DNA of 33,882 nt from Candidatus Uhrbacteria bacterium (GTDB taxonomy: Bacteria > Patescibacteriota > Patescibacteriia > UBA9934), in contig CAIKHN010000002.1 of assembly GCA_903827265.1 (NCBI GenBank), positions 1 to 33,882 on the forward strand, in the 5' to 3' direction. A model generated the notes under the pieces. The model was given only the letters and a program-made list of their open reading frames with translations, was not told the DNA's origin and ran no database searches. A program made the position numbers and the translations under genes. This document shows positions 18,958 to 28,342 of the stretch, in pieces (within the stretch, counting starts at the first letter, position 1; the number at the start of each line of letters is the position of its first letter).

Positions 18958-18979
18958 GTGATGGGGTCGTGATGGGGTC
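18958..18979. repeat. 11-bp tandem duplication at the edge of the VOC cassette
   Basis: GTGATGGGGTC occurs twice back to back; the second copy contains the first bases of the cassette's left inverted repeat. Confidence 0.8.
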
Positions 18980-19399
18980 AGGTCTTGAATCTATGCATTT
19001 TAATCATTTCCACAAACGGCTTCAATATTGTTTCCGTTAGGATCGATGACGAACGCGCCGTAGTATTTGTCGTGATACTGCGAACGAATTCCTGGTTTCC
19101 CGTTGTCTTTTGCTCCTGTCGCGATCGCGGCATTATGCCAGAGATCAACCTCAGATTTTGTTGCACAAGAGAATGCAATGTGCACATTCGATGATACCGG
19201 GTGTGCTTCATCAGAAGCGCCGACCCAGAACGTTGGCCGATCAATCCCAAAGCCGACAACTTCATTCTCAATTGTAAATAAAGGTTTTATTCCAATAACT
19301 GTCAGAGTTTTTGTGTAAAAATAAACGCTTGTTTTGAAGTCACGAACAGATATAGAAACATGGTTGAGCATAAAATGCATAGATTCAAGACCTGACCCC
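18974..19399. mobile_element. 426-bp single-gene cassette with perfect 29-bp terminal inverted repeats
   Basis: The ends 18974-19002 (GGGGTCAGGTCTTGAATCTA...) and 19371-19399 are exact reverse complements over 29 bp. The interior is only the VOC gene: its stop TAA lies in the left repeat and its start codon abuts the right repeat. There is no transposase, so it would have to move in trans. GGGTCAGGTCTTG-type ends are, to my recollection, common near Y1 (REP-associated) transposases. No target duplication is obvious apart from an 11-bp tandem repeat on the left. A 13-bp copy of the end recurs at 27182. Confidence 0.75.
19000..19371 (-). CDS. VOC-family (glyoxalase/bleomycin resistance-like) protein
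   Basis: A 123-residue single-domain VOC protein with the usual paired beta-alpha-beta-beta-beta halves. MLNHVSISVRDFKTSVYFY opens the fold with the first metal-site His, HIAFSC gives the second, and YYGAFVIDPNGNNIEAVC the glutamate near the C-terminus. Family members are metal-dependent dioxygenases, lyases or drug-binding proteins, and the specific activity is unknown. The ORF-track start (19380, MHF) comes from the inverted repeat; MLNHVS at 19371 fits the family. The whole gene is the cargo of the inverted-repeat cassette, so it was probably acquired. Confidence 0.85.
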   Translation of the reverse strand: MLNHVSISVRDFKTSVYFYTKTLTVIGIKPLFTIENEVVGFGIDRPTFWVGASDEAHPVSSNVHIAFSCATKSEVDLWHNAAIATGAKDNGKPGIRSQYHDKYYGAFVIDPNGNNIEAVCGND

Positions 19400-19400
19400 T

Positions 19401-20666
19401 TCAGGGTAGCATGGTGAATTTTTCTTGGTGAATGTGGTGGTGGGGAACATTGAGAACAAAGAGTTGATCGCGGATTGCCTTTACCATGCCACCTGGACCG
19501 CAGAGAAAGATATCGGTTTTAGCAGGATCGAGGCCGGAGAGCGCTGCGGCCGCGGTGAGGAAGCCTTTTTCTTTGCTATTCCACACAACGATACTGATGT
19601 TCGATTTACGCTTTGCGATGTCGGCGAGGTCGTCTGCAACTGCGTTTTCGGTGTCGTCGGAAATCGCGTAGTACAGCGTTGCCGTGTAGTCAGTAGGGAG
19701 CGATTCGGCAAACGCGAGGAACGGCGTAATGCCAATGCCGCCAGCAATCCAACATTGGGTTTTTCCCCCTGTTCCGTACGTAAAGTTTCCATACGGACCT
19801 TCGACCATTGCTTCATCGCCAACGACAAGGTTATGGAGCGTGTTGGTGAAGTCGCCGAGATTCTTTGTGACGAATCGAATCGAGCCGTTTGGCCCTGACC
19901 CTGCAATCGAGAACGGATGTTCCTCCGCTTTCACGCCATTGCTCATGTAGGTGACGTAGGCAAATTGTCCAGGTTTCAGATCGAACCCACGATCTTTCGG
20001 CGCCAGTGTGACGTCGACGAACTTTTCGTTTACCACATTCACGCTAGTGACGACATATGGTGTTCGATGGACGAAAATCGTTTTGAATAGCACGCGGTAC
20101 ACAATGGCGAAAACACCAAGACCAAGGAAAATAATAAACAAAAGCTTCAAAACGGGCATGAGTTGAATGCTTCCGGGGATGAGTACGCTGTGGAGTGCGC
20201 TGAGCACAAACGCGACCGCAAGGTATTGATGAACCTTTTTCCAGATGTGATACGGCAGACGAACGTAGTAGGTACAAATAATGCAGATGGTCATGATGAT
20301 GAGCCCGAACACACCAAGATTTTTTGCGAGATCACCGACGGGAAGCAAAAATGTTGCCGCGCTCGCGAACGAAAGCTCGATGTATTGCCAGGCAAGAAAA
20401 ATAGGGTGCAGAACAAGCGCCATGAGGGCGAGGGTGCCGATGGTTTGGTGAAATTGGTACGACGCACCAAGGTCACCGAAGATTTTCTCCTGCGCTGGAA
20501 TGCGAATCGCCAAAAGGAGCGCAAGGGTAAAGGCCGTAAAGCCAAATACGCCGAGAATTTTTCCAAGGTATGAAATTGATGCGACTGGCGGTTCGGCGAT
20601 GAGCCAAAGGAAAAGGGGGAGTGCAAGAAATAGCGATGTAACTAACGTACCTTTTGGAAGGGTCAT
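19401..20666 (-). CDS. Ferric reductase-like membrane flavocytochrome
   Basis: 421 residues starting at the ATG at 20666 (MTLPKGTLVTS); the longer ORF-track start runs through the repeat array at 20694-20802. Six or so membrane helices fill residues 5-215 and include the histidines expected to hold two hemes: QFHQTIG, LHPIF, KKVHQYLA and ALHSVL. The cytoplasmic part is an FNR-type oxidoreductase with an FAD-binding EHPFSIAGS motif, YGNFTYG, and an NAD(P)H-binding WIAGGIGITPFLAF and LCGPGGM. It should pass electrons from NAD(P)H across the membrane to iron, oxygen or another acceptor. The stop codon lies 1-2 nt from the VOC cassette, so the insertion appears to have hit its 3' end precisely. 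Confidence 0.9.
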   Translation of the reverse strand: MTLPKGTLVTSLFLALPLFLWLIAEPPVASISYLGKILGVFGFTAFTLALLLAIRIPAQEKIFGDLGASYQFHQTIGTLALMALVLHPIFLAWQYIELSFASAATFLLPVGDLAKNLGVFGLIIMTICIICTYYVRLPYHIWKKVHQYLAVAFVLSALHSVLIPGSIQLMPVLKLLFIIFLGLGVFAIVYRVLFKTIFVHRTPYVVTSVNVVNEKFVDVTLAPKDRGFDLKPGQFAYVTYMSNGVKAEEHPFSIAGSGPNGSIRFVTKNLGDFTNTLHNLVVGDEAMVEGPYGNFTYGTGGKTQCWIAGGIGITPFLAFAESLPTDYTATLYYAISDDTENAVADDLADIAKRKSNISIVVWNSKEKGFLTAAAALSGLDPAKTDIFLCGPGGMVKAIRDQLFVLNVPHHHIHQEKFTMLP

Positions 20667-20693
20667 AGATGCCGGAATGATAACTGATTTTTC

Positions 20694-20802
20694 TGGCGAA
20701 GCTAAGCTTAGGCATCCAGAAGTGAAAAATATAAGGTGAATATTCAGATTTATTTTTGGCGAAGCTAAGCTTAGGCATGATTGCGAAGCTAAGCTTAGGC
20801 AT
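20694..20802. repeat. Three direct copies of GCGAAGCTAAGCTTAGGCAT
   Basis: Copies at 20694-20715, 20757-20778 and 20782-20802 share TGGCGAAGCTAAGCTTAGGC with a final AT (the third lacks one G). Each contains the palindrome AAGCTAAGCTT or AAGCTTAGCTT depending on strand. Gaps are 41 and 3 nt, so this is not a CRISPR. It lies directly upstream of the flavocytochrome gene and the related palindrome at 15254 also lies at a promoter. Confidence 0.8.
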
Positions 20803-20819
20803 GATTTTTTCGTCAAAAA

Positions 20820-20852
20820 CGAGAACACCCCGGCCTGCGTGGCCGGGGGTTC
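20820..20852 (-). terminator. Rho-independent terminator of tdk
   Basis: ACCCCCGGCC with an ACGCA loop and GGCCGGGGTGTT, followed on the minus strand by CTCGTTTTTGACGAAAAAA. Confidence 0.8.
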
Positions 20853-20872
20853 GTGGGGCGCGTGAATTGATT

Positions 20873-21472
20873 TCACCATCGAGGATTGAAACAGCGGTCG
20901 CAGCGGGCCGCATAGTTTTCGGATCCGACGATGAATCGACCGCCGTCTTTTGGCGGTTCCTCGAGCAGCTGGGACCATCGCGCCTTGTGTCCGCACTCCG
21001 TGCACCAGGCATTGAGGCAGTGTCGGTTGCTTGGGTTCGCGAGTGTGATGATCCGGGCGATCGTCGCGAAGGGGGCGCCGAGGTAGTCGTTGTCCAGGCC
21101 GGCACAGACGATGTCGTGCCCGCGATCGCGTAGCTTGACGAGCAGGCGGAGCATCTCCGGATCGATCACGAAGTGCGCTTCATCGATGCCGATCGTGCTC
21201 GTTTTGGGATCGATCAGCGTCTCGAGATGGTCAACGCTGATGAACTCCGTCGAGGGGAGCTCCTGTCCCGTACGGCTGCGGCACATTCCGTCGTCGCGCG
21301 TGTTCGCGCTGGGGTGAAAGAGCTGGAAGGACTGCCTTCCGTACGTCTGGCGGTGAAGAAGGTCTTCGATGAGGCTGCGGGACTTCGCAGCGCACATCGG
21401 TCCGTAGTAGACCTCGATCTCGCCAACGCTGGGCATGTCGCGGAGGGGAAGGACGGGGCGAAAGATGTGCAC
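20873..21472 (-). CDS. tdk: Thymidine kinase (type II)
   Basis: Phosphorylates thymidine for salvage of dTMP. The P-loop is YYGPMCAAKSRSLI (about residues 22-35), the Walker B region IGIDEAHF, and a zinc-binding pair lies in CTECG and CDRCF near the C-terminus. The P-loop differs from the canonical GPMFSGKST in having Ala for the second Gly. The GTG at 21472 follows AAGGAAACTTCC, a good Shine-Dalgarno, and gives 199 residues; MPSVGEIEV at residue 13 is a family-like alternative. GC-rich codons, its own promoter and its own terminator make it one of the isolated-unit genes. Salvage fits an organism with limited nucleotide synthesis. Confidence 0.93.
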   Translation of the reverse strand: MHIFRPVLPLRDMPSVGEIEVYYGPMCAAKSRSLIEDLLHRQTYGRQSFQLFHPSANTRDDGMCRSRTGQELPSTEFISVDHLETLIDPKTSTIGIDEAHFVIDPEMLRLLVKLRDRGHDIVCAGLDNDYLGAPFATIARIITLANPSNRHCLNAWCTECGHKARWSQLLEEPPKDGGRFIVGSENYAARCDRCFNPRW

Positions 21473-27179: not shown

Positions 27180-27181
27180 AA

Positions 27182-27194
27182 GGGTCAGGTCTTG
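27182..27194. repeat. Solo copy of the VOC-cassette end (GGGTCAGGTCTTG)
   Basis: Thirteen bases identical to the outer end of the cassette inverted repeat at 18974. It sits between two convergent genes and supplies the TGA stop of the 27185 glycosyltransferase. Confidence 0.7.
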
Positions 27195-28342
27195 CTTTTG
27201 GCGATTTCTCGTAATGTCTCAAGCACGATTGATCCGGTCCTTTTCCATGAGAATTGCTGTGCGTGTTCGATCCCTCGCACACGGAGAATGTTTTGGAGCT
27301 TTGGGCCGTGTGGTTCGTCGAGAAGCTGGTGGAGAGCCTGGACGATATCGGTGATGTTGAGTGGATCAACGTACATCGCAGCGTTGCCCGCAACGTCGGG
27401 AAGAGAGGACGTGATGCTCGTGATTACTGGAGTGCCACAGGTCATTGCTTCAAGTACTGGAAGTCCGAATCCTTCGTAGAATGATGGGAAGAGAAGTGCT
27501 GTTGCGCCGCGGATGACCGCGGATTTATGTTTTTCAGGGATGTATGCGACTTCGTGGATATCGTTCCGATATGCTGAGGCGGCAAGCGCTGCGTCAATAT
27601 GTGTTGTTTTCCATCCTTTTGTTCCGGCGAGAACGAGAGGAATCGCCTGACCGCCGTTTTTGCGGAACATGGTGTATGCCGCAATAACACTATCGAGATT
27701 TTTTCGTGGCTCCCGTGTTGCGAGCGCAAGAAGATATGGATGATTTAAGTCGTATGCGGCGCGGTAAGATTTGTCGGAGGACTGTTCTCTTGGGCAAAAG
27801 ATATCGTGATCAACGCCAAGATGTGCCACGGTGATGTGTTCGGGCAAAACACCGTAATGCGTTATAGCGTCGCGTTTACTATGTTCAGAAACGGCAATAA
27901 CACGTTTTGCACGCTGAAAGATTGCGTCTTCATTCGTGATTCGCGCCCGCAGATGGTCTTTGTACGTAAAGAAATGTGGGACTGTCCGGATCGCAGCGTC
28001 ATGAAAAATGACGGCATATGGCAGTCGGGTTTTGCACAGATGTGCATTTGGAAAAAGCCAAGCGTCGGGAGTTTCTGGAAGAAAACGCTCCATCGTTGGC
28101 CCGAACGGCAATGCCCATAGTGCGCTTGCCACTTTGTTCGGAATGGAGAACGGCGAAACGGTGACGTTGTGCTCGCGAAATGTCGGAAGATTCATGAGTG
28201 TGTCGTCTGTTCCTGTTGCGAAAAGCAAAAAATGATCATTCGGTGCCGCCGCTGCCATAGCGTGAACGAGCGACTCCGTAACAATCCCTACGCCAGTTTT
28301 GTGGGGAGCGGTGAGTGATCGAATGTCGACAGCGATCTTCAT
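27185..28342 (-). CDS. Glycosyltransferase family 4
   Basis: A 385-residue GT-B enzyme. The start MKIAVDIRSLTAPHKTGVGIVTESL matches the donor-independent N-terminal domain; FHDAAIRTVPHFF and VIAVSEHSKRDAI follow. The donor-side motifs are YLLALATREPRKNLDSVI and SFYEGFGLPVLEAMTCGTPVI, then TSSLPDVAGNAAMYVDP. It is the last of three genes in an operon (sugar phosphotransferase, GT4, GT4) and overlaps the previous gene by 4 nt. The C-terminus ends inside a copy of the cassette-end sequence, so its last residues (KSKT) may be derived from the insertion. Confidence 0.9.
   Translation of the reverse strand: MKIAVDIRSLTAPHKTGVGIVTESLVHAMAAAAPNDHFLLFATGTDDTLMNLPTFREHNVTVSPFSIPNKVASALWALPFGPTMERFLPETPDAWLFPNAHLCKTRLPYAVIFHDAAIRTVPHFFTYKDHLRARITNEDAIFQRAKRVIAVSEHSKRDAITHYGVLPEHITVAHLGVDHDIFCPREQSSDKSYRAAYDLNHPYLLALATREPRKNLDSVIAAYTMFRKNGGQAIPLVLAGTKGWKTTHIDAALAASAYRNDIHEVAYIPEKHKSAVIRGATALLFPSFYEGFGLPVLEAMTCGTPVITSITSSLPDVAGNAAMYVDPLNITDIVQALHQLLDEPHGPKLQNILRVRGIEHAQQFSWKRTGSIVLETLREIAKSKT

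Follow-up and report, generated by a model that had tools for sequence, protein, structure and literature searches.

Organisation of the VOC locus

The window, that is the whole stretch of DNA analysed (33,882 nucleotides; G000:C2:1-33882), comes from a Candidatus Uhrbacteria genome (G000; 955 kb in 40 contigs), which was compared with four congeneric sister species (G001, G002, G003 and G004). Between a FemAB-like gene on the left and a ferric-reductase-like FAD/NAD oxidoreductase gene on the right (19401-21005, minus strand) lies a unit of 426 bp (18974-19399) bounded by inverted repeats, where the sole gene between the arms encodes a VOC/glyoxalase-fold protein and a transposase gene is absent:

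18970..18973, plus strand: flanking tetramer TGAT, 5' of the left arm
18974..19002, plus strand: left terminal repeat arm, 29 bp, GGGGTCAGGTCTTGAATCTATGCATTTTA; holds the VOC stop codon TAA (19000-19002)
19000..19380, minus strand: gene for the VOC/glyoxalase-fold protein; 126 aa if translation starts at the arm ATG, 123 aa if it starts at the inner ATG (19369-19371)
19371..19399, minus strand: 29-bp right terminal repeat arm, matching the reverse complement of the left one at every base; in-frame ATG (19378-19380) inside
19400..19403, minus strand: TGAA (bottom strand), the tetramer flanking the right arm on its 5' side; contains the oxidoreductase TGA, and is TTCA at the matching place in G002

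The initial annotation described a 426-bp unit whose 29-bp ends are exact reverse complements, and this holds, the match reaching 33 nt at 97% identity when extended (18970-19403); so does its claim that the VOC stop codon is made of left-repeat bases, all three of which lie in the arm. The start codon, said to abut the right repeat, does so in the case of the inner ATG, which shares one base with the arm; a further in-frame ATG lies within the arm, and the protein begun there opens with M-H-F-M. Insertion had also been placed exactly at the stop codon of the neighbouring gene, which is right to within one base and not strictly exact, the oxidoreductase TGA (19401-19403) being separated from the right arm by base 19400.

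The open reading frame encodes a genuine VOC protein (Pfam Glyoxalase, 31.1 bits; cut-off 20.6). The protein (19003-19371) also matches FosK, of the Fos-type glutathione transferases, at 32 bits, far under the 280-bit cut-off, and because this similarity is only weak the gene is not to be named a resistance gene. GC content is 43% in the unit versus 52% in the window, a candidate sign of foreign origin that was dropped, since a unit around a resident NUDIX gene (described below) is equally at 43% and the value thus tells little about origin. Short repeat-end remnants lie just outside the left arm (18962-18973), with TGATGGGGTCG ahead of the TGAT and arm, and likewise outside the right arm of the NUDIX unit (G000 C4, L011 4706-4745), with further copies of ACTGAG-GGGGTCA; both sets look as if they were footprints of earlier insertions or excisions.

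A Y1 transposon with the same ends

Units with related ends were sought across the genome by a DNA search of G000 and a scan for GGGGTCAGGTCTTG. An 886-bp element (C24:13965-14850) carries the same arms as the VOC unit, matching at 28/28 positions on one side and 27/28 on the other, and encodes a 282-aa Y1_Tnp protein (Pfam PF01797, 46.9 bits) with visible HYH and YIVLNP motifs, bearing out the proposal that the ends are tied to a Y1/REP-associated transposase. The protein is classed by NCBIfam as a REP-associated tyrosine transposase at 81.7 bits, barely over the cut-off of 80; its sequence match to TnpA-REP (PDB 4er8) is marginal (E 0.06), and a C-terminal match to HTH_23 (PF13384; E 5e-4) is weak, its 20.2 bits falling under the cut-off of 24.6. 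Around the second Y1_Tnp protein of the genome, on C13, neither inverted repeats nor matching arms occur.

TIRYT (terminal-inverted-repeat-associated Y1 tyrosine transposase) elements, or TIRtrons, have been described as combining Y1 transposases with a TIR motif GGGGWSAS and TIR repeat families (Di Nocera et al. 2013, PMC3733652), and as forming subclass 2.1 of class 2 TnpA-Y1, with HTH C-termini (PMC6006769); the subjects set out in these accounts include repeat families and transposase genes (PMC3733652, PMC6006769), and the words 'cargo' and 'passenger' are absent from the main text of PMC6006769. The C24 element has the Y1_Tnp domain with HUH and Y---NP motifs that membership requires, and both its ends carry GGGGTCAG, of the GGGGWSAS type, with no REP hairpin; single arms fold at -0.3 and 0 kcal/mol, which is to say without a stable hairpin. 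The repeats of the VOC unit are thus almost certainly TIRYT ends.

The C24 transposase frame stops inside the arm, at a TGA 4 nt from the end, as happens in several related elements. A gene packed so tightly into its repeats had been thought unusual, a view that does not survive, since the transposase gene of the parent transposon likewise ends in its own terminal repeat and the design is therefore not special to VOC. The C24 element is missing from G004, where its flanks nearly abut, leaving a near-clean empty site.

Repeat subtypes, distribution and target

Pairs of inverted 14-mers no more than 2 kb apart number 19 in the window versus 0.15 in shuffles. Genome-wide, G000 holds 25 exact copies of a 12-bp core, GGGTCAGGTCTT, with differing suffixes that define five subtypes:

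A: the type of the VOC unit
B: TACCTTTTACTTTT
C: GATTTTGAGCATTTT
D: GAATCTTGAATTCT
E: GCTTTTGGCGATTTT

Besides the VOC unit, subtype A bounds the C24 element, the 513-bp NUDIX unit (C4:172693-173205) and a geneless unit of 153 bp with less perfect arms (C4:170819-170971). The eight subtype-A arms of the genome all belong to facing pairs, four in number and less than 1 kb apart, an arrangement matched by 0 of 200000 random placements, and random lone insertion does not yield such a pattern; lone subtype-A arms are not found in G000, whereas those of other subtypes are common. One of the latter, a subtype-E repeat at 27181-27208 (AGGGTCAGGTCTTGCTTTTGGCGATTTC), supplies the final residues (EIAKSKT) and TGA stop of a glycosyltransferase-like gene (27185-28342, minus strand), whose 3' end it overlaps.

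Subtype A appears to be local, since a search for its TIR across 380 genomes of the phylum (up to 3 mismatches) matched its own genome only. Of 23 family genomes, 13 have the 12-bp core (reversed control, 0), as do 37 of 73 order genomes (reversed control, 2 matches), and a longer end pattern is found in more than 100 stretches from many phyla among the matches listed, one of them an archaeal MAG; viral contigs gave no match to this pattern, and a literature search for the exact 14-mer returned no paper. Facing arms among the matches listed amount to at least 83 pairs, some overlapping, mostly of 45-300 bp (hairpin- or MITE-like) or about 0.9-1.1 kb (transposase-sized), with few intermediate. 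About 20 TIR pairs of 0.9-1.1 kb among the matches listed, from CPR and other phyla, enclose the same transposase, whose stop codon often falls within the TIR. A 498-bp unit of G624, considered as a further cassette, was rejected: it has no long ORF and has only its ends in common with the transposase element of that genome.

Several further features of the arms were seen. The family member G019 has the exact core 42 times, with copies that form near-perfect palindromes of 50-65 bp or tandem double arms spaced by about 40 bp, and in G018 (L080 1437-2186) an arm has apparently been inserted in frame in a coding sequence (...RKRGQV...), which reads through. Within many suffixes a short sequence is directly repeated at a spacing of about 7-8 nt (GAATCTTGAAT, CAATGTTCAAT, CGATCGTCGAT, GCATCCTGCAT), possibly a recognition motif co-varying with the transposase. 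At several loci (C4, C19 and C2 of G000, with relatives) the suffix at one position differs by species, being A or D in G000 and E-like in G001, G002 and G004, which suggests either that one site has received insertions more than once or that newer subtypes have replaced older repeats.

The tetramer immediately 5' of GGGG fits NGAN in each of the 14 arms examined from subtypes A, C and D; it contains TGA in 10 of them, and TGAT and TGAA are the commonest forms. For the VOC unit, the C24 element and a kinase unit of G004, the right-hand WTCA is found at the matching place in a relative that lacks the unit, consistent with predicted duplication-free insertion on the 3' side of a TGAW tetramer, as IS200/IS605 relatives do. 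Because TGA doubles as a stop codon, such targets naturally fall at gene ends.

Other genes between TIRYT ends

Other genes with the same ends, proposed as a check in the initial annotation, do exist. G004 carries a 723-bp subtype-A unit around a P-loop kinase gene that is missing from G000, G001, G002 and G003; in G001 the corresponding spacer is about 27 nt versus 31 nt for the joined G004 flanks (counted by eye), a near-clean empty site. The NUDIX unit has arms as perfect as those of the VOC unit and the same start and stop geometry, and its orthologues stand at the same locus without subtype-A arms in G002 (75% identity), G001 (62%) and G003 (59%); a subtype-E arm occupies the same 5' position in G002, upstream of the ATG, and on the 3' side the G000 arm comes after a TGAT to which no repeat is attached in G002. 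A third unit (C19:42752-43733) encloses an SDR gene that is also resident: each of the four congeners has it at this locus (75-81% identity), again without these arms, and in G002 a degenerate E-like repeat lies on its 3' side.

Arms can therefore end up on both sides of a resident gene, and paired perfect arms alone do not prove a mobile cassette. Arm identity was for this reason rejected as evidence of recent unit movement, the resident NUDIX gene having equally perfect arms. Either whole units insert, with NUDIX as an exception, or nearby arms have been homogenised, possibly by template switching between inverted repeats.

The VOC locus in related genomes

VOC is absent from the four congeners and the other family genomes sampled. 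In G001, G002 and G003 the same femAB and oxidoreductase flanks are present and the VOC unit is missing; in G004 both the unit and the oxidoreductase gene are missing. Homology with G002 restarts immediately outside the right arm, at base 19400, which makes the right edge exact; the left edge is not clean, with 38 bp between the unit and the last G002-homologous base. The gap in G002 holds different sequence, apparently another gene, without these TIRs (G002:C1:153692-154394), which marks the femAB/oxidoreductase junction as a place of gene turnover, and G001 bears one lone repeat of another subtype there, giving the site a repeat history of its own.

A VOC homologue is encoded in 8 of 240 genomes of the class, G000 included, the other seven being 26-46% identical; no TIRs were found around the homologues in six other class genomes examined, nor was a second locus with the same VOC cassette found. 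The proposal of a mobile cassette stands in part: sister species offer a VOC-less locus, but the NUDIX and SDR genes occupy the same locus in relatives without arms. The fixed locus named beforehand as telling against mobility is likewise not what is seen for VOC, and is what is seen for the NUDIX and SDR units of the same genome.

Origin of the unit

The explanation judged best, and held to be reasonably probable, is that VOC arrived by insertion of a whole unit, as a non-autonomous, transposase-less TIRYT derivative in which VOC substitutes for the transposase gene. The ends of the VOC unit would be recognised by the HUH/Y1 enzyme of the intact C24 copy, which would cut beside the flanking TGAW tetramer, and the unit would have moved in trans, presumably via a single strand as in IS200/IS605 relatives, inserting without target duplication. 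From the absence of VOC in relatives and its rarity in the class, together with the exact right edge, the pairing of every subtype-A arm in G000, the NGAN flanks, the G004 kinase unit and the near-clean empty site of C24 in G004, we infer that gene and arms came in together and that VOC was not bracketed at a later time; the residency of NUDIX and SDR, the unclean left edge, the want of a second VOC cassette locus and the lone repeat in G001 weaken this reading.

Bracketing in place is a less probable account. VOC would have come by another route, or been lost in relatives, and single TIRYT arms would have inserted beside the codons where it starts and stops; recent amplification, or template-switch correction between neighbouring inverted repeats, would then have made the arms identical. 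This is apparently what happened to NUDIX and SDR, with orthologues lacking these arms in G001, G002 and G003 (for SDR also in G004); the different-subtype arm of G002 at the very NUDIX 5' position, the single arm at the NUDIX 3' end following a TGAT that is repeat-free in G002, and the commonness of lone arms of other subtypes all favour it. It fits poorly with the lack of VOC in every sampled congener and family member, the exact right edge of the unit, the absence of lone subtype-A arms from G000, and the near-clean empty site of the G004 kinase unit with the same ends. That the arms are palindromic terminators or regulatory sites fixed on either side of VOC, not transposon ends, is very improbable and largely refuted: they do sit at gene ends, and some lone repeats are orthologously placed (upstream of the same gene on G000 C6 and G001 C29), but one arm by itself forms no stable hairpin, such arms terminate a transposase element of G000 and numerous elements of this kind from other phyla, and the locus of the congeners lacks them. 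An assembly or binning artefact has nothing specific in its favour beyond the fragmented G000 assembly and is scarcely credible, the unit being contig-internal, its flanks syntenic in congeners, and the same ends recurring in an independently assembled sister species.

A broader scheme, advanced only tentatively, would join insertion of a whole VOC unit to the bracketing of resident genes as two steps of TIRYT gene capture in CPR. Arms would insert at the start and stop ends of a resident gene, as for NUDIX and SDR, making it a unit with matching ends, which a Y1 transposase could then carry to new sites, as may have happened to VOC and the G004 kinase.

Comparison with known systems

REP and REPIN sequences are short inverted doublets at gene ends, thought to be mobilised by a Y1 transposase (RAYT) encoded by one or a few genes per genome. 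The arms of the VOC unit resemble them as short inverted doublets dispersed at gene ends alongside a Y1 transposase, and differ in having no GTAG/GTGG foot, the flanks being TGAW-like, and no single-arm hairpin. The likeness to TIRYT/TIRtron elements extends to the GGGGWSAS-type TIRs, the Y1/HUH transposase of REP-associated type, the overlap of TIR and transposase gene at the 3' end of the latter, and repeat families as single, dimeric and clustered arms; the VOC unit, however, has a VOC gene and no transposase gene, and is a non-autonomous derivative at most.

The VOC unit is analogous to mobile insertion cassettes (MICs). Transposase-less MICs, among them the IS231-derived MIC231A1 and the qnrD mic, consist of two IS inverted repeats round a passenger gene, and the IS231A transposase is reported to mobilise MIC231A1 in trans (PMC3913671). 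The VOC unit shares with them a passenger gene between IS ends and the lack of a transposase; known MICs, by contrast, have the ends of other IS types and usually a target duplication, where the VOC unit has Y1 ends and none was seen. The parts are thus already known, both TIRYT ends and passenger genes between IS ends (PMC3913671). One-gene TIRYT-ended units in a CPR bacterium beside bracketed resident genes were not found in the open-licence papers searched. TIRYT/RAYT-type Y1 transposases are usually discussed as spreaders of short repeats; should TIRYT ends also transport whole genes singly, they would contribute to one-gene turnover where genomes are small and gene-dense, and bracketed resident genes beside inserted units would let the capture step be observed directly.
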